Shown here piece by piece: positions 2,909-49,885 of a stretch of DNA of 52,037 nucleotides. Origin of the DNA: Caldifarciminota bacterium. GTDB taxonomy: Bacteria > Hydrothermota > UBA3073. The position numbers and the translations under genes were made by a program. The stretch is from contig JAGMCL010000109.1 of NCBI GenBank assembly GCA_023129165.1, positions 1 through 52,037 of the forward strand, read 5' to 3'. Below the pieces are notes generated by a model. It had not been told where the DNA came from. It did no database searches and saw only the letters and a program-made list of their open reading frames with translations. Positions within the stretch are counted from its first letter, which is position 1, and every line of letters starts with the position of its first letter.

Positions 2909-3135
2909 CAATTCCAGCGAACGAAGTGAGCTAACTTCCAGTCGCAGGCTAACTTCCAGTCGCAGGCTAACTTCCAATGCGAAGCATTAACTTCCATTCC
3001 GAAGGAATAATTTCCAGCACGCAGTGCTCTTTTCCAGCGAACGAAGTGAGATAACTTCCAGCATCGGAGATGGTATCTTCCAGCACCAACGGTGCTAACT
3101 TCCATTCACGAAGTGAATAACTACACGAAGTGAAT
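2907..3135. repeat. Array of about 11 mini-hairpin units: conserved TAACTTCCA linker plus sequence-variable short palindrome with GNA-type triloop
   Basis: Units such as ATGC-GAA-GCAT, TTCC-GAA-GGAA, AGCAC-GCA-GTGCT, CATC-GGA-GATG, GCACC-AAC-GGTGC, TTCAC-GAA-GTGAA. Confidence 0.9.
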
Positions 3136-36351: not shown

Positions 36352-37806
36352 ATGTTTGCATTGTTAATTCTCGCAATAACTTCCATCTCTATCCCGATAG
36401 ATAGTTGGCAGAATGAGATGGTGGATGAACTTCGTGTAAGGGGGATGTATCTCACTAAATTTACTGGGGTAAAGCCTTATTACACTGGAAGATTTGAAAT
36501 CCCAGAAAGAGAATTAAAAAATGTGGAAAATTGGCTTCTTTCAAGGATAATGAGTGAAACACGCTTTCTCGAGGCTGCCTGGGTGTATGATACGATTAAC
36601 ACTGCAAGAGTAAAAGTAAATATATTTTATGAGGATGAATACTTTAACCTTTTCCTGCAACCCATCTTCAAGGTAGGAAAGGATAGTCTACATCCAAGAA
36701 AATTATTTAAGGATATCGTGGCAGCGGATTATGAGAGGGCATATATAAGGTTCTCCCCTGGTGATTTCAACCTCCTCATAGGAAGAGAGAGAATCTCACT
36801 TGGACCATCTCCCTATGATAATCTTCTGCTTTCTGGAAAGGGAATTCCTCTTGATATGATAATGGGTTCATACGAATCTCATTTCTTCAAACTTACTATG
36901 TTATTTTCAAGATTAGAAGACATATACGATAAAGAGGTGGATTTTGTTGGGGATACAACTACCTATAAGACAAATCAATTCAGGTATATCACGATAAAGA
37001 GAGTCGATTTTTCATTGAAAGACCTGTTTGAATGGGCTGGGTTGGACTTGACACATTTTGTTGATGCAATGAGCTTGGGTTTTTCAGATGTGTGTGTCTT
37101 CGGGGGTGAAAATGTCTTTCCCGACCTTTATTATCTAAATCCACTGACCCTGGGCTATTTAAGTCAATGGACAAGAGGAGACGACTCGAATACCCTGTGG
37201 TGTCTTGATGGACGTATAGACTTTAGAGGTTTGTCTTTTTACGCACAGTGGCTGATTGATGACTATCAATATTCAAAGGACATAAACGCTGAACCGAACC
37301 ACACAGGATGGAATTTGGGTATTCAATCAGCAGATCCATTTGGATTAAAAAACTCTTTTATCACAGCAGAATACTCCAGGGTATCGAGATGGACATACAC
37401 CTATTTTCGCCCCGTTGGAAGGTATAACTACTATGAGCTTCCACTCGGGCATCCCGATGGTCCTGGTTTTGATAAAATATCATTCAGAACGGTATATCAT
37501 CTAAATAGAAACTGGGATATAATCAGCAGATTTAGTTACAGACGCAAGGGGGAGACTAATATTGAGACTCTTTGGCCAATACCAGAGATGCCAAGGGTAC
37601 CGGGTACATTCTTCCCCGATAACAATTTTTTAAGTGGAGTAGTCGAGAGATCAATGGATTTTAGATTTGGCCTGAGATATTACAGACTTCCTCAGGTTTC
37701 GCTTCATACTGAGATAGGTTACTCAACGGTTGCTAATTACCAACACATAGAGGGAAAGAGAAAGGGATTTCTTGCAATCAATATGGGAATTTCGCTTAGA
37801 ATATGA
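36352..37806 (+). CDS. Capsule assembly Wzi-like outer-membrane protein
   Basis: Beta-barrel-like; SRVSRWTYTYFRPVGRYNYYELPLGHPDGPGFDKISFRTVYHLNRNWDI. Confidence 0.75.
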   Translation: MFALLILAITSISIPIDSWQNEMVDELRVRGMYLTKFTGVKPYYTGRFEIPERELKNVENWLLSRIMSETRFLEAAWVYDTINTARVKVNIFYEDEYFNLFLQPIFKVGKDSLHPRKLFKDIVAADYERAYIRFSPGDFNLLIGRERISLGPSPYDNLLLSGKGIPLDMIMGSYESHFFKLTMLFSRLEDIYDKEVDFVGDTTTYKTNQFRYITIKRVDFSLKDLFEWAGLDLTHFVDAMSLGFSDVCVFGGENVFPDLYYLNPLTLGYLSQWTRGDDSNTLWCLDGRIDFRGLSFYAQWLIDDYQYSKDINAEPNHTGWNLGIQSADPFGLKNSFITAEYSRVSRWTYTYFRPVGRYNYYELPLGHPDGPGFDKISFRTVYHLNRNWDIISRFSYRRKGETNIETLWPIPEMPRVPGTFFPDNNFLSGVVERSMDFRFGLRYYRLPQVSLHTEIGYSTVANYQHIEGKRKGFLAINMGISLRI

Positions 37807-37854
37807 GGTATAAAAATAGCTAATGCCGAATGACTAATACCTAATTTTATAAGA

Positions 37855-38226
37855 TTGAAGGAAAAAGTAAAAGATAAAAGTTTTGGTTTTATGTCGTTGC
37901 CGTTTGGTCTAATTTCCGTGATCTATATTGCCCTAATTTTCATTCTTTCGGGTATTTCGGGGGAAATTGAATTGATAAAGAGGTTTAATCCGCTTAGTCT
38001 GCTGCATATCCCCTTATATGGTTTATTAACGTTTTTTCTTATATGCACCTTCTGGCAAAAGGGCAAAAAGTTATTAATTCTTGCAATTTTTATTGCTCTT
38101 TTGGTAGCGATTTTTGACGAACTGAATCAGATTCATATACCAGGAAGAATGGCATCAGGATGGGATGTGGTGATGGATGCGGTGGGGATAGGGATGGTGA
38201 TGTTATGCGTAAGGCGTAGAGCGTAA
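37855..38226 (+). CDS. VanZ-like membrane protein, copy 1; last codons run into the heptamer array
   Basis: DELNQIHIPGRMASGWDVVMDAVGIG. Confidence 0.85.
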   Translation: MKEKVKDKSFGFMSLPFGLISVIYIALIFILSGISGEIELIKRFNPLSLLHIPLYGLLTFFLICTFWQKGKKLLILAIFIALLVAIFDELNQIHIPGRMASGWDVVMDAVGIGMVMLCVRRRA

Positions 38227-38367
38227 GGCGTAGAGCGTAATGCGTAAGGCGTAAAGCGAGGAACATGGGGAGTAGGGCGTAAGGCGTAGAGTGTAGGGAG
38301 TAAGGCGTAGAGTGTAGGGCGTAAGGAGTAGGGAGTAGGGAGTAAGGCGTAGGGCGTAAAGCGAGGA
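38207..38367. repeat. Heptamer array A, 23 x 7 nt in register (GCGTARR, GAGTARG, GTGTAGG variants)
   Basis: gcgtaag gcgtaga gcgtaag gcgtaga gcgtaat gcgtaag gcgtaaa gcgagga acatggg gagtagg gcgtaag ... gcgtaaa gcgagga, directly before ggattATG of the four-helix gene. Confidence 0.95.
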
Positions 38368-38372
38368 GGATT

Positions 38373-38756
38373 ATGAGGGGCGATTTAAAAGGATATAAAG
38401 ATTTGGATGTTTATCAATTGTCTTACAAAATGGCTATTGAGATATTTGAAGAAACAAAGAATTTTCCTAAAGAAGAAAAGTTTTCGTTGACTGACCAGAT
38501 TCGCCGTTCCTCAAGGTCAATAGCGAGTAACATTGCTGAATCATGGGGTAAACGAATGTATCGTAACCATTTTGTAAACAAGCTCAGCGATAGTTATGCA
38601 GAGGCCAATGAGACCCAGACCTGGCTCGACTTTAGCCTTTCGCATAGCTATATGAATAAAGAAAGGTATGACTATTTCACTGATAATTATGACCATATAA
38701 GTCGAATGTTGTTTAATATGATGAAAAATCCTGAAAAATTTCTTTTAAAGTTATGA
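38373..38756 (+). CDS. Four-helix bundle protein (S23/IVP family), copy 2
   Basis: YKDLDVYQLSYKMAIEIF...FSLTDQIRRSSRSIASNIAESWGKR. Confidence 0.92.
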   Translation: MRGDLKGYKDLDVYQLSYKMAIEIFEETKNFPKEEKFSLTDQIRRSSRSIASNIAESWGKRMYRNHFVNKLSDSYAEANETQTWLDFSLSHSYMNKERYDYFTDNYDHISRMLFNMMKNPEKFLLKL

Positions 38757-38802
38757 TCTTTTATGCGATATACCATACTTTTCACATTTCTCTATTGTAG
38801 TT

Positions 38803-38867
38803 GCTCTTTACGCATTACTCTATACTCCTTACGCAAGATTAAATGTGCATACTGCTTACTGCATACT
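38803..38867. repeat. Heptamer array A' in inverted orientation, plus three GCATACT/GCTTACT heptamers
   Basis: gctcttt acgcatt actctat actcctt acgcaag = reverse complement of GCGTAAG/GAGTATA/GAGTAAT/GCGTAAA; then gcatact gcttact gcatact. Confidence 0.9.
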
Positions 38868-39254: not shown

Positions 39255-39803
39255 ATGACTAAAAATAAAGAAATTTTGTTTGTTACTAATACCCAAAAGG
39301 TGTTATATTTTTTCCTAAATAAGTCTGGAGAAGAATTTTTGGGAAGTGAGCTGGAGGGGAAAATCGGCATCAGCAGATCTGGTATCTATTATGCGTTGAA
39401 GGAACTTACTAACGAAGGATTCTTATGTCAGCATGTAAAAGGCGATATAAGCTTTTACTCGTTGAATTATAATAATCCAGTGGTCAAGCATCTTAAGGTC
39501 TTAAAAACGGTAATAGAAATTCAACCACTTCTTGAAAAACTAAAAAAACTCTCATCAAGAATAGTCCTTTTTGGTAGCTCTTCTCGTGGAGAAACTGTCA
39601 AGGATAGCGATATAGATTTATTTATCGCGACTCATAACAAAAAGGCAATTGAAGAAGAAATTACAAAGTTTGGGTTGAAAAAAAGGATACAGGCTGTTAA
39701 AAAGACAGAGCTAGAGTATGTAGAGTTGAAAAGAAGTGATCCTGTTTTTTATGAACAGATAAATAGAGGTATTCTATTATGGGAGGAAGAGGATGAATCC
39801 TGA
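39255..39803 (+). CDS. wHTH domain fused to MNT-type nucleotidyltransferase
   Basis: KIGISRSGIYYALKELTNEGFL...RIVLFGSSSRGETVKDSDIDLFI. Confidence 0.88.
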   Translation: MTKNKEILFVTNTQKVLYFFLNKSGEEFLGSELEGKIGISRSGIYYALKELTNEGFLCQHVKGDISFYSLNYNNPVVKHLKVLKTVIEIQPLLEKLKKLSSRIVLFGSSSRGETVKDSDIDLFIATHNKKAIEEEITKFGLKKRIQAVKKTELEYVELKRSDPVFYEQINRGILLWEEEDES

Positions 39804-40221
39804 TTTTGAAAATTGCTTGAAGAAAAACAAGATAAGAAAATTTAGCCCTGGAAAATCTCTCACAGGGAAAGAAATTGCTACTGCAGAAAGTGATATTAAA
39901 GAAGCAAAGGAATCTCTCGCAAGAAAGAAGTATAAATGGGCGACCATTCAGGCATACTATTCTATGTTTCATTCCGCAAGGGCGCTCTTATACAACAAGA
40001 ATTACAGAGAGAAAAGCCATTACTGTTTGATTATTGCTTTGAAGGTTCTTTATGTAAAAACTGGTGAATTACCTATTCGTCTTGTGGAGGGTTTACAAAG
40101 AGGCAAGAACTTGCGGGAGGACGCTGATTATTACAACGAGTGGTCAAAAGCAGGATCTGAGGAGATGATAAAAATAGCCTATGAATTTTTAGAGGTCGCA
40201 AGTAGTATTGATAAACAGTAA
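39793..40221 (+). CDS. HEPN-domain protein
   Basis: KYKWATIQAYYSMFHSARALLYNKNYREKSHYCLIIAL; overlaps MNT gene. Confidence 0.88.
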   Translation: MNPDFENCLKKNKIRKFSPGKSLTGKEIATAESDIKEAKESLARKKYKWATIQAYYSMFHSARALLYNKNYREKSHYCLIIALKVLYVKTGELPIRLVEGLQRGKNLREDADYYNEWSKAGSEEMIKIAYEFLEVASSIDKQ

Positions 40222-40249: not shown

Positions 40250-40610
40250 TAAATAAGGCGTCCCAGTGGAATAGTTACCCGATGAAATAGTTACACAATT
40301 CACCCTGTACATTATCACTACAGGGCAAGCCATAATGTAATATAAAACCTAATTACACCCTGTTAAATAGTTAACACATCTCACAGGGCAAGTATGGCAA
40401 GCAGGACAAGTCGCATTTCACCCTGTACACTACGCTACAGGACAAGCCATAATGTAATAAAGTGAAACATTACACCCCATTAGATAGTTTACACATCTCA
40501 CCATAATGAAATATAATAAACCTGATTACATATGGCAAGCAGGGCAAGTATGGCAAGCGGGATAAATAGGGTGTGAAGCGTAAGTCGTGAGGAGTAGATA
40601 AGCGATAAAT
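40250..40610. repeat. Cluster of palindromic mini-elements, 9-mer repeats and heptamer remnants
   Basis: CCCAGTGGAATAG, CACCCTGTACattatcacTACAGGG, CCCTGTtaaatagttaacacatctcACAGGG, GGCAAGTAT/GGCAAGCAG 9-mers, gaagcgtaagtcgtgaggagta. Confidence 0.75.
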
Positions 40611-41150: not shown

Positions 41151-41190
41151 CTTCTTCAGTATTTCGAAATAGTGAAAAGTTCTATATTAG

Positions 41191-41409
41191 ATGCCAAGGG
41201 TACCAGGTACGTTCTTCCCCGATAACAATTTTTTAAGTGGAGTAGTCGAGAGATCAATGGATTTTAGATTTGGCCTGAGATATTACAGACTTCCTCAGGT
41301 TTCGCTTCATACTGAGATAGGTTACTCAACGGTTGCTAATTACCAACACATAGAGGGAAAGAGAAAGGGATTTCTTGCAATCAATATGGGAATTTCGCTT
41401 AGAATATGA
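41191..41409 (+). pseudogene. Duplicated 3' end of wzi-like gene
   Basis: Protein identical to the C-terminal 72 aa of the ORF at 36352-37806. Confidence 0.95.
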
Positions 41410-41457
41410 GGTGTAAAAATAGCTAATGCCGAATGACTAATACCTAATTTTATAAGA

Positions 41458-41841
41458 TTGAAGGAAAAAGTAAAAGATAAAAGTTTTGGTTTTATGTCGT
41501 TACCGTTTGGTCTAATTTCCGTGATCTATATTGCCCTAATTTTCATTCTTTCGGGTATTCCCAGTCAGATTGAATTAATAAGTAAGTTTAATCCGCTTAG
41601 TCTGCTTCATATCCCTTTATATGGTTTATTAACATTTTTTCTTATACGCACCTTCTGGAGAAAGGGGAAAAAGTCATTAATTCTTGCAATTTTTATTGCT
41701 CTATTAGTAGCGGTTTTTGACGAATTGAATCAGATTCATATACCAGGAAGAATGGCATCAGGATGGGATGTGGTGATGGATGCGGTGGGGATAGGAGGTA
41801 TGGCGATGTTTTATCAAAGACTTGTAAAATATCGCAAATGA
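41458..41841 (+). CDS. VanZ-like membrane protein, copy 2
   Basis: Near-identical to 37855-38226 with scattered substitutions and a different C-terminus. Confidence 0.88.
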   Translation: MKEKVKDKSFGFMSLPFGLISVIYIALIFILSGIPSQIELISKFNPLSLLHIPLYGLLTFFLIRTFWRKGKKSLILAIFIALLVAVFDELNQIHIPGRMASGWDVVMDAVGIGGMAMFYQRLVKYRK

Positions 41842-41972
41842 CCCTGATGAAATACATACCCTGTTGAATAGCTCTGCTTCCACCATAATGTAATAAAGTG
41901 AAACATTACACCCCATTAGATAGTTTACACATCTCACAGGACAAGCATGGCAAGCAGGGCAGGCAGGGTAAA

Positions 41973-46694: not shown

Positions 46695-47103
46695 TGGCCC
46701 ACGAAGGACACCCCGATATAGTCGTTCCTCCCTACGGGGCAGGCGGAGATCACTAAATTAAGTAAATAAAAGACAAAGAATAATAGAAGATTAAAAGATG
46801 GCCCACGAAGGAGATAGGGAAATTGCCCACGGAGTACACTAAGTTCACGAAAGATATAAATTAAAAAGAAAAAGAAATAAAAGAATTGTAAGATTTTCGT
46901 GCATTCCGTGAATTTCGTGGGAAAGAGATGGCCCACGGAGTACACTGAGTTCACTGAAAATAAAGAAAAGAAATTTCGTGCATTCCGTGTATTTCGTGGG
47001 GAAAGTTTTTTTGTCTTTAGTGGGGGAAAATTTTCGTGGGCAGTTTTTTCTTGACTTCTTTTAGATTTTATGATATTATTTGTGTAGTAAACTAGATATA
47101 TAT

Positions 47104-48309
47104 ATGTTCGATGTTGCGGTTATAGGAGCTGGACCCATAGGTTGTTACACTGCATACCAACTTGCTGACAAGGGATTTGATGTGCTGTTGTTAGAGGAGG
47201 ATGATGAGGTTGGAAGGAATGTTGTTTGCACCGGAGTAATTGGTAAGGAGGCATTTGAACGATTTAATATTCCTAAAGATTCTATAATTGCCAAGATAAA
47301 TAGACTCCTTTTTGTTTCACCATCTAATATTCACCTTGAGTATATACACCAGGATGAGCTTGCATATGTTGTGAATAGATACAGGTTCGATAAGGGGATT
47401 TTTCAACTGGCATTAAGTAGAGGGGTTGAGGTCAAATTGGGAGAGGGTGTACAAGATATAAGAGAAGAGGGGGATAGGGTCGTATTACAGACAGACAATA
47501 GCATATATAGAGCTAACACTGCTGTTATTGCTACTGGTGTAAACCCCGCACCCTGCCCTACTTCGCGGAGTAAGGCTGGGGAAGGACGAGATGTTATGAG
47601 GTGCGGGGTAAATTACGAGCTACAACGTTCAGCAGGGATGGGAATAGTTAAAAATTTCCTGATGGGGGCGCAGATTAATTTACCTGAATACCGAACATAT
47701 GAAGAGTTATCTACTGCGAATTCAACGGTTGAGATACATACTGGACGGAGGATTGCACCAGGTTCATTTGGGTGGGTTGTGCCATCAAATGGAAGTGTTA
47801 GAGTTGGTGTGATGACTGAGAAAAATCCAAAATATTGGCTAAAGAAATTCATTGAAAATAGATTGAATCAAGTAATTTCTAATGACGATGGATTTAGAGA
47901 GAAACCCATTGCATTTGGTTCCATTGAAAGGAGTGTAAGTGGTAGGATACTTGCAGTAGGAGAGGCTGCTGGACAGGTAAAGACAACAACAGGTGGAGGA
48001 ATATTTTATGGGCTTTTAGGTTCTGAAATAGCAGTGAATATGCTTATAAAAGCTATCAAGACTGGGAATATGGATTATCTTACAGAATATGAGCAGAGAT
48101 GGAGAGGAATGCTCGAGGAAGAGATATTTATGGGATGGCATATAAGAAAGTTGGCTAAGAAAATAGATGATGAGACACTTGATAGGCTATTTAAACGGTT
48201 CAAGAGAGGAAAGTTCCTTGCAATGAGGATAATAAGACGGATAAATTTTGAATATCATGGAGCCCTTTTAGCTTTTTGCCTAAAGGCGTTTGGAGGAATA
48301 ATTAAGTGA
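47104..48309 (+). CDS. FAD-dependent oxidoreductase (geranylgeranyl reductase family) with 23-aa in-frame insertion
   Basis: FDVAVIGAGPIGCYTAYQLADKGFDVLLLEED; AVGEAAGQVKTTTGGGIFYGL; insertion at 47539-47612. Confidence 0.9.
   Translation: MFDVAVIGAGPIGCYTAYQLADKGFDVLLLEEDDEVGRNVVCTGVIGKEAFERFNIPKDSIIAKINRLLFVSPSNIHLEYIHQDELAYVVNRYRFDKGIFQLALSRGVEVKLGEGVQDIREEGDRVVLQTDNSIYRANTAVIATGVNPAPCPTSRSKAGEGRDVMRCGVNYELQRSAGMGIVKNFLMGAQINLPEYRTYEELSTANSTVEIHTGRRIAPGSFGWVVPSNGSVRVGVMTEKNPKYWLKKFIENRLNQVISNDDGFREKPIAFGSIERSVSGRILAVGEAAGQVKTTTGGGIFYGLLGSEIAVNMLIKAIKTGNMDYLTEYEQRWRGMLEEEIFMGWHIRKLAKKIDDETLDRLFKRFKRGKFLAMRIIRRINFEYHGALLAFCLKAFGGIIK
47539..47612. repeat. 69-bp palindromic element inside the FAD oxidoreductase CDS, with direct repeat GTAAA
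   Basis: GTAAA(47539-47543)-CCCCGCACC...GGTGCGGGG-TAAA; GTAAA repeated at 47608-47612. Confidence 0.85.
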
Positions 48310-48310
48310 T

Positions 48311-48436
48311 GATAGACTACAGACAGCAGACCACAGACCGCAGACTACAGACCGCAGACTACAGACCGCAGACTGCAGACTACAGACCACAAACCACAGA
48401 CTACAGACCGCAGACTACAGACCACAGACTAAGGAC
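48311..48436. repeat. Heptamer array B, about 18 x 7 nt (TACAGAC, CGCAGAC, CACAGAC)
   Basis: gatagac tacagac agcagac cacagac cgcagac tacagac cgcagac tacagac cgcagac tgcagac tacagac cacaaac cacagac ... Confidence 0.95.
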
Positions 48437-48470
48437 TAAAAAATTAATTAATAAAGGAAGGAGGAGGATT

Positions 48471-48833
48471 ATGGGAAGGGATTATAGGAAGATTAAGGCA
48501 TGGAAATTAGCAGATGAACTGGCAGTCTTAATATATAAGTCAACAGGTGATTTTCCAAAGTCTGAAATCTATGGACTTACTTCTCAAATAAGGAGAGCAG
48601 CGGTATCTGTAGCTGCAAATATAGTAGAAGGAGCATCACGCAAAACAAAACTTGATTATTCCCATTTTTTATATATTTCAAGAGGTTCATTGGCTGAGGT
48701 TGGATATTATATACATCTTTCGAGAAGATTGGACTTCATTGATGACAATAAGTGTACTAAATTGGGTAGGTTGCAACAAGAAACTGCTGCTACACTTTAT
48801 GGATTGATAAAGTCTGTAGAAAGTGAAACTTGA
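48471..48833 (+). CDS. Four-helix bundle protein (S23/IVP family), copy 3
   Basis: MGRDYRKIKAWKLADELAVLIYKSTGDFPKSEIYGLTSQIRRAAVSVAANIVEGASR; GAGGAGGATTATG start context as in copy 2. Confidence 0.92.
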   Translation: MGRDYRKIKAWKLADELAVLIYKSTGDFPKSEIYGLTSQIRRAAVSVAANIVEGASRKTKLDYSHFLYISRGSLAEVGYYIHLSRRLDFIDDNKCTKLGRLQQETAATLYGLIKSVESET

Positions 48834-48852
48834 AAAAAAACCTTATATTTTT

Positions 48853-48887
48853 AGTCTATGGTCTGTGGTCTGTAGTCTGTTGTCTAA
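48853..48887. repeat. Heptamer array B', inverted orientation
   Basis: agtctat ggtctgt ggtctgt agtctgt tgtctaa = reverse complement of CAGACT/CAGACC units. Confidence 0.92.
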
Positions 48888-48906: not shown

Positions 48907-49371
48907 ATGATAAAGGGAAGTAGGTTATTAATATTACTTGTGTTATTGTTTGCTACAATTTCTTTTGCTCAAGAGGGAATACAGGGGGGTGCACAGTTTT
49001 ATGTATATCCAGGTGATGTGGGGGAGCTTCAGATTAAGGTTCAGATATGGGGACAGGTCCGAATGCCCGGGATGTATCAGGTGCCAAAGAGTATGGATGT
49101 AGTAGGACTTATGTCTCTTGCCGGAGGACCGACTGAGGATGCAAACCTTTCGGCAGTGAGGATTGTACGCACAGCACCTATATCTGATGTCCTTAAGGTA
49201 GATATACAAGGTTATACACGTTCCGCATCAATAGAATCCATACCAATACTTGAGGCTGGTGATATGGTGATTATTCCTGAAAACCCATATCATAAATTTG
49301 AAAGGTTTGTAAGGGTAGTAGCACAAATTGCCATAATAGCGCAGGTGTATAATGTGTTGTTTGGAGAATGA
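48907..49371 (+). CDS. Secreted SLBB-domain polysaccharide-export-like protein
   Basis: Signal peptide MIKGSRLLILLVLLFATISFAQ; VQIWGQVRMPGMYQVPKSMDVVGLMSLAGGPTEDANLSAVRIVR. Confidence 0.85.
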   Translation: MIKGSRLLILLVLLFATISFAQEGIQGGAQFYVYPGDVGELQIKVQIWGQVRMPGMYQVPKSMDVVGLMSLAGGPTEDANLSAVRIVRTAPISDVLKVDIQGYTRSASIESIPILEAGDMVIIPENPYHKFERFVRVVAQIAIIAQVYNVLFGE

Positions 49372-49375
49372 GATA

Positions 49376-49438
49376 GTTAGTAAACAGTATGCACTATGCA
49401 GTAAGCAGCAGGTTGCTAAATATAATGCACTAAGGAGT
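49376..49438. repeat. Heptamer array C (degenerate)
   Basis: gttagta aacagta tgcacta tgcagta agcagca ... atgcact aaggagt. Confidence 0.7.
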
Positions 49439-49443
49439 GAAAA

Positions 49444-49818
49444 GTGGGATATAAAGGATATAGAGACTTAAAGGTATTTAAATTATCATATAAATTAGCT
49501 ATGGAGGTATTTGTAATAACAAAATTATTTCCCAAGGAAGAGAAATATTCGTTAACCGATCAAATAAGAAGGTCGTCTCGAGGTGTGCCTGCCAATATAG
49601 CAGAAGGATGGAAAAAAAGAAGATATCCAAAAATGTTCATCAGTAAGACAATCGACGCCGCTGGTGAAGCAGGTGAAACAGAAGTATGGCTTGATTTTTC
49701 GTTGGATTGCGGCTATATTAATCAAGAAAAATATGATTATTTTATCGAAGGATATGATGAGGTAAACCGGATGCTTTATGGAATGATAGGGAAGCCAGAG
49801 AGTTTCTGTGGAAGTTAG
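49444..49818 (+). CDS. Four-helix bundle protein (S23/IVP family), copy 4
   Basis: YRDLKVFKLSYKLAMEVFVITKLFPKEEKYSLTDQIRRSSRGVPANIAEGWKKR; GTG start. Confidence 0.92.
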   Translation: MGYKGYRDLKVFKLSYKLAMEVFVITKLFPKEEKYSLTDQIRRSSRGVPANIAEGWKKRRYPKMFISKTIDAAGEAGETEVWLDFSLDCGYINQEKYDYFIEGYDEVNRMLYGMIGKPESFCGS

Positions 49819-49853
49819 TGCTTAGTACATACGGCTTACTGCTTAGTTAATAT
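49819..49853. repeat. Heptamer array C', inverted orientation, starting right at the stop codon
   Basis: tgcttag tacatac ggcttac tgcttag ttaatat. Confidence 0.75.
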
Positions 49854-49885
49854 CTGAAGTCTATTATCTAATCCGGGGGGGAAAT

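Follow-up and report, generated by a model that had tools for sequence, protein, structure and literature searches.

The locus raises the question of what kind of unit is formed when a small gene lies between a tandem array of one heptamer and an array of its reverse complement, and why this layout recurs with different heptamers within a single contig. The window, meaning here the whole 52,037-nucleotide stretch of contig JAGMCL010000109.1 from a Caldifarciminota bacterium, holds three such cassettes (A, B and C), and all parts of these cassettes, with the oxidoreductase and SLBB genes beside them, lie on its forward strand.

Three heptamer cassettes and their neighbours

Cassette A follows an upstream operon gene for an FAD-dependent oxidoreductase (47080–48309), whose orthologue in a sister species is 96% identical and whose stop codon stands 3 bases before the array. 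The 5' array (48313–48437), recognized by inspection and by Tandem Repeats Finder, contains about 17 units of NRCAGAC, the initial annotation having counted about 18; the program returned positions 48314–48431 with a period of 7, 15.7 copies and a score of 101, and a score of 173 for period 14. After a good ribosome-binding site, an ATG at 48471 opens a 120-residue gene (IVP-A, 48471–48833) for a four-helix protein of the S23 type (PF05635, 23S_rRNA_IVP, E = 1.5e-31). Next come five units of the inverted 5' word, RGTCTRT (48853–48887; period 7 and 4.6 copies at 48854–48885), and they are paired with the 5' array in the predicted RNA fold. The closest solved structure to IVP-A is 2gsc (E = 1.9e-21), published, according to its title as cited in PMC10053308, as a novel assembly of five four-helix bundles.

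A gene with an SLBB domain (48907–49371), supported by a profile match and by comparison with the sister species, separates cassette A from cassette B and thus lies between the two slots whose contents differ between the species. In cassette B, a 5' array of the CAGTAAG type (49375–49412; Tandem Repeats Finder and sister comparison) precedes IVP-B, which has a GTG start (49444–49818; profile match; the IVP occupying the sister's 48.3 kb slot is 98% identical), and a 3' array delimited by sister comparison (49816–49863). Cassette C comprises a 5' array of the GTARRGC type (38207–38365), IVP-C (38373–38756; PF05635, E = 2.9e-33) and a 3' array of inverse units (CTTTACGCATTACTC..., 38801–38836) with an inverted score, as defined below, of 22. 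The layout recognized at 38.2 kb and 48.3 kb, with another word at each place, is therefore found at 49.4 kb as well, and the PF05635 bit scores of the three (109, 115 and 114) stand far above the curated cut-off of 33.8. The arms of the window cassettes enclose the IVP gene only, with no Y1 (HUH) tyrosine transposase encoded inside. An Rfam search of the window matched no family, hence no rRNA; cassette A sits between two protein genes.

The 5' array of cassette C takes the place of the last codons of an upstream VanZ-like gene at 37855, which ends within the array, whereas a paralogue at 41458–41841 has an intact end and no cassette. Both belong to a segmental duplication of about 0.6 kb (37501–38226 and 41190–41841) spanning the end of an outer gene and the VanZ-like gene, the second copy being without a heptamer cassette. 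Elsewhere in the window, an IVP gene without heptamer arms (2504–2908) is directly followed, at 2930–3104, by repeats of 18–22 bases, TAACTTCCA(G/A)..., and a Polbeta/NTP_transf_2 gene adjoins a HEPN gene at 39255–40221, resembling an MNT-HEPN toxin-antitoxin pair.

The start context GAGGAGGATTATG, which the initial annotation had described as identical in two cassettes, does occur exactly twice in the window, at the gene starts at 38.2 and 48.3 kb. It is simply a strong Shine-Dalgarno sequence followed by ATG and is not a defining feature, since it is missing from the third cassette and a ribosome-binding site of such strength precedes only 49 of the 168 IVP genes collected below.

Arms, words and proteins across six phyla

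The proposed conservation of architecture was borne out beyond the window in a non-redundant collection of 168 IVP genes, all with flanks of 200 bases or more, drawn from 62 genomes of six phyla (101 WOR-3, 45 Bacteroidota, 17 Acidobacteriota, 3 Planctomycetota, 1 Chloroflexota and 1 Delongbacteria). The genome of the window is grouped in the candidate phylum WOR-3, the sister species being a named WOR-3 genome with a 98% identical IVP, and it contains 16 PF05635 matches, many of them with other words and some with a period of 8 or 9. The inverted score was defined as the best inverted match between the upstream and downstream flanks, a score of at least 18 being taken as strong, and 418 genes of the same loci served as controls. 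Strong matches flanked 93 of the 168 IVP genes (55%) versus 11 of the 418 controls (2.6%; P = 3e-48), the comparison rates being 1.2% for mismatched pairs of flanks and 7% for the direct orientation. With the threshold at 14 or more, most members in every phylum qualified; a clear inverted pair was missing in 22% of the IVP genes. Among the 77 cassettes with arrays on both sides, the period was equal in 68: 53 had a period of 7, and a period other than 7, which the initial annotation had named as contrary evidence, was used by 14 (period 8) and by one (period 9).

A median of 1 nt separates the upstream stop codon from the 5' array, and 4.5 nt lie between the 3' array and the following start. 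A possible role of the arrays as suppliers of stop codons in all frames was considered and rejected as anything beyond a side benefit (35 of 84, versus 22.6 expected by shuffling; upstream stop inside the array in 29 of 63). Within the heptamer, clustering of the variable positions as the mark of a fixed core was not significant (z = 1.5). When IVP genes lie between co-directional genes, the ratio of sense to antisense orientation is 105:1. This is the informative figure, because co-directionality with the upstream neighbour alone (96%) is unremarkable in these operon-rich loci, where control genes reach 91% (P = 0.055).

Comparison with the sister copies gave dN/dS values of 0.02 for IVP-A, 0.05 for IVP-B and 0.06 for IVP-C, as low as that of the flanking SLBB gene. 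Such strong purifying selection argues that the protein does something; two other IVP copies, each disrupted in one of the two genomes, gave 0.17–0.26. In the predicted fold of the cassette RNA the two arrays are paired, at -148.7 kcal/mol (z = -3.15), with none of 100 shuffles as stable. The mismatches between arms carry no wobble signature of RNA pairing (123 incompatible with G.U, 116 compatible), nor any transition bias pointing to it. Since the wobble test gives no support to selection on RNA pairing, the arms may have a role at the DNA level.

A separate measure related the words to the proteins: the upstream flank of one cassette was set against the inverted downstream flank of a second, a similarity that ordinary homology of flanks cannot inflate. 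For genome pairs from different families, this similarity was 9.8 at 45–50% IVP identity, which is the background level holding up to 50%, and rose to 10.6 at 50–60% and to 12.9 above 60%; neither of the last two values was ever reached in 1000 permutations within phyla (p = 0.001 each). The co-variation of word with protein clade, suggested beforehand as a test, was thus found above 50% identity. It also qualifies the initial annotation's view that the vocabularies of different cassettes are unrelated, which is right for IVPs less than about 50% identical and wrong above that level, where words are similar even across phyla. Words of the CAGTAAG type go with one IVP clade in WOR-3, Planctomycetota, Chloroflexota and Bacteroidota, and words of the CAGCTAA type with another in WOR-3 and Acidobacteriota. 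Unrelated IVPs of one genome have no common word, so the similarity tracks the protein and not the host genome. Neutral DNA is unlikely to stay alignable at such protein distances, and the word is therefore probably held by recognition; the recogniser would be the IVP itself.

Turnover of whole units between sister species

The genome of the window (G000) and that of the sister species (G001) have flanking genes that are 95–98% identical, and the contents of their operon junctions differ. In G000 the order is oxidoreductase, cassette A, SLBB gene, cassette B, Wzz kinase, and in G001 it is oxidoreductase, cassette B, SLBB gene, cassette A, Wzz kinase, with unchanged orientation. In the sister's 48.3 kb slot, a remnant, GACTACAGACAG, is kept ahead of the CAGTAAG array, and the sister's CAGAC array holds three long direct repeats. 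Cassettes A and B thus seem to have exchanged slots, as read from draft metagenome assemblies in which misassembly is possible. In a relative of the same family, the slot before Wzz contains a C-type IVP.

At an ABC-transporter slot, G000 has a 7-mer cassette (D) and G001 an unrelated 8-mer cassette (E), everything between stop and start codon being exchanged. In another slot, G001 lacks a cassette that in G000 is fused with the 3' end of the preceding gene, and at an rfb slot an 8-mer cassette in G000 corresponds to a gene-less inverted array in G001. A cassette of one type lies in different slots of a further operon in the two genomes, the vacant slot of G000 holding a gene-less array; this change is less certain because the sister contig starts and ends in that cassette. 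Two slots are common to both genomes. Taken at the level of the assemblies compared, whole units were gained, lost, replaced and swapped between the sister species. No target-site duplication was seen at the compared slots, where the arrays blur the ends.

Other insertions were noticed at or near these loci. Near one cassette (L103, 4415–5005), comparison with the sister reveals an intergenic insertion made up of little more than an ORF that by eye resembles a Y1 transposase; the genome concerned has 8 Y1_Tnp matches. In the genome of the window (L014/L015, contig C34, about 47454–48051), an insertion bordered by CCCTGTGTAATA and TATTACACAGGG, with an ORF that by eye is GIY-YIG-like, interrupts an IVP gene. 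A palindromic insert of about 50 bases (CTTGCCCTGTGGAATA...TATTCCACAGGG) breaks the sister's IVP gene and is absent from the genome of the window (L095 8440–9100 versus L101 9730–10400), and members of its CCCTGT...ACAGGG family are also scattered in the window, for example at 40290–40520 and 41840–41970.

Competing readings and known systems

Matched inverted arms, a common period, the linkage of word to protein clade, sense orientation within operons, purifying selection and the turnover of units are observed features of these cassettes. They are probably best explained by elements of the intervening-sequence (IVS) type, studied until now inside 23S rRNA, that reside in operon junctions, the unit being 5' heptamer array, S23/IVP gene and 3' inverse array, with the IVP recognizing its own heptamer. 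Briefly, the unit would be transcribed by read-through from the host operon, and its arms would pair in the transcript, leaving the IVP gene in a closed loop like that of the 23S rRNA IVSs, whose stem is cut by RNase III. A cut between cistrons would be harmless, so that operon junctions, like rRNA loops, would form a tolerated niche. The IVP, whose solved relative is a pentamer of four-helix bundles, would recognize the heptamer units, with the consequence that the word is inherited with the protein, though drifting between clades; movement of the DNA might proceed by recombination through the arrays or with a helper enzyme in trans. An IVS-type reading with mRNA as the host transcript is suggested by the protein family, the enclosing stem and the kind of heptamer, all the same as in the Coxiella IVS. 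The IVSs of 23S rRNA lie in helix 9, 25 or 45. This defining location fails for the cassettes, which are accordingly a variant and not members of that group, the window holding no rRNA; no 23S rRNA motifs were found near the collected IVP genes either. More tentatively, and with less confidence than in the reading just given, S23/IVP proteins may be sequence-specific readers of short repeats, each clade with its own heptamer read through the 7-nt pitch, whose recognition drives the spread of the units; the 23S rRNA IVSs could then be one niche of a large, mostly unnoticed mobile class in operon junctions.

Among the other accounts, a DNA element of the REP/RAYT kind is unlikely. In it, the arms would be processed as single-stranded DNA by a Y1 (HUH) transposase acting in trans, the IVP being accessory and the gene-less arrays non-autonomous. 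Y1_Tnp occurs in 73 of 80 IVP-bearing WOR-3 genomes and in 17 of 67 without IVP, a co-occurrence that is suggestive, though confounded by phylogeny and genome size, and 7 IVP-bearing genomes have no Y1_Tnp. Gene-less inverted pairs take the place of cassettes in slots, and the Y1-like ORF mentioned above is itself an insertion near one cassette. In an Acidobacteriota genome, gene-less inverted GAGTGCT arrays stand 64 bases apart (L181, 1398–1536), and that genome's IVP cassette (L160) has the same word. Some gene-less copies of this kind are clear, but partnered arrays away from IVP genes amount to 31%, versus 19% expected by chance. Moreover, the cassette carries no transposase gene and has only long-distance inverted arrays, with no short REP palindrome.

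The possibility that the arrays are ordinary simple repeats born by slippage and gathered in intergenic DNA, where IVP genes merely landed, is already disfavoured and appears distinctly improbable. The copy number and composition of arrays are dynamic, as the direct repeats in the sister's CAGAC array attest. In a 273 kb sample of this genome, drawn without bias, Tandem Repeats Finder detected 30 period-7 clusters; three Markov-3 shuffles of it yielded no period-7 array with a score of 40 or more. The initial annotation had named arrays occurring without the gene as often as with it as contrary evidence; in these 273 kb, 48 of 51 arrays of period 7–9 were indeed not beside an IVP gene, mostly without an inverse partner, whereas in other genomes arrays were 13–38 times denser beside IVP genes (6.1–6.7 per kb) than in other intergenic DNA (0.16–0.5). 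All 17 arrays near IVP genes had an inverted partner, far above the 31% elsewhere and the 19% obtained with random partners. Against slippage also stand the words that follow the protein across families and phyla, and the differences between sisters in whole units, both arms and gene, at one site. Dense mosaics of 7-, 8- and 9-mers without an IVP gene were noted in intergenic DNA of this genome (L024 10420–15060, L030 18640–19260, L034 10740–11000), with words such as GTTGATTA, AATAAACTC, TGTTAAA and AAAGTAA whose order and direction with respect to the genes are often similar.

It is still less probable that the arrays are an autoregulatory leader controlling translation or transcription of the IVP gene, phase-variable through repeat number. 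The 5' array does lie directly upstream of the ribosome-binding site, its repeat number varies, and for Beggiatoaceae a role of heptamer repeats in regulating translation has been suggested (PMC4679880); this account would explain neither the matched inverse array after the gene nor the exchange of array and gene together. Finally, retro-type mobility akin to that of diversity-generating retroelements, suggested by the resemblance of the IVP to Avd, their related four-helix bundle protein and the partner of a reverse transcriptase (a similarity of PF05635 published in PMC10053308 and echoed by weak, below-cut-off bAvd matches of IVP-B and IVP-C), is very improbable, since RVT_1 is absent from G000 and G001 (94% and 90% complete), in both of which cassettes turn over, and is present in only 18 of 147 WOR-3 genomes while IVP is present in 80, which makes a reverse transcriptase unlikely as a required motor.

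Even 25 years after 23S rRNA IVSs were first described, their function and origin were regarded as unclear (PMC4990558). The cassettes supply sister pairs with recently moved elements and dozens of protein-word pairs, and some of the loci come from cultured members of the Bacteroidota (Flavobacterium, Cognataquiflexum, Dokdonia and Aureibaculum), so that both the ligand of the protein and the means by which the element moves can be tested directly. The cassette layout is now known in at least six phyla, set between ordinary operon genes, and a PF05635 gene, commonly labelled as a ribosomal or intervening-sequence protein, can be the sign of a cassette that rearranges. A literature search, with subscription journals mostly outside its reach, returned no description of IVP genes with inverted heptamer arrays.

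The cassettes resemble REPIN/RAYT systems (PMC3116915) in having a small gene between inverted repeats and possibly in having dispersed gene-less repeat copies; they differ in that the unit lacks a Y1 transposase and in that the arms are tandem 7-mers 0.4 kb apart and not short palindromes. With the heptanucleotide repeats of Cyanobacteria, Beggiatoaceae and some Bacteroidetes (STRR, TAACTGA; PMC4679880) they have in common intergenic tandem 7-mers, often just before start codons; however, those repeats were described without an IVP gene or an inverse partner, and in the cassettes there is one word per cassette, not per genome.

The closest parallel is found in the 23S IVS of Coxiella burnetii (helix 45), whose terminal inverted repeats form a 28-bp stem, which is excised by RNase III, and which encodes S23p, a protein seemingly not expressed (PMC4990558). 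Three tandem heptamers, GACAGAT, precede the S23 start codon, or two in some strains (PMC4990558), so that tandem heptamers before an S23 gene were already known and the operon cassettes are a variant of that arrangement. Both encode a member of this protein family, have inverted repeats at their ends around the gene, carry tandem heptamers of variable copy number before the start, lie in sense orientation in the host transcript and measure 0.4–0.6 kb. Unlike the Coxiella IVS, the cassettes have a protein-coding operon as host transcript, arms made almost wholly of heptamers on both sides, a protein on which purifying selection is strong, and, within a genome, several unrelated units that change slots.
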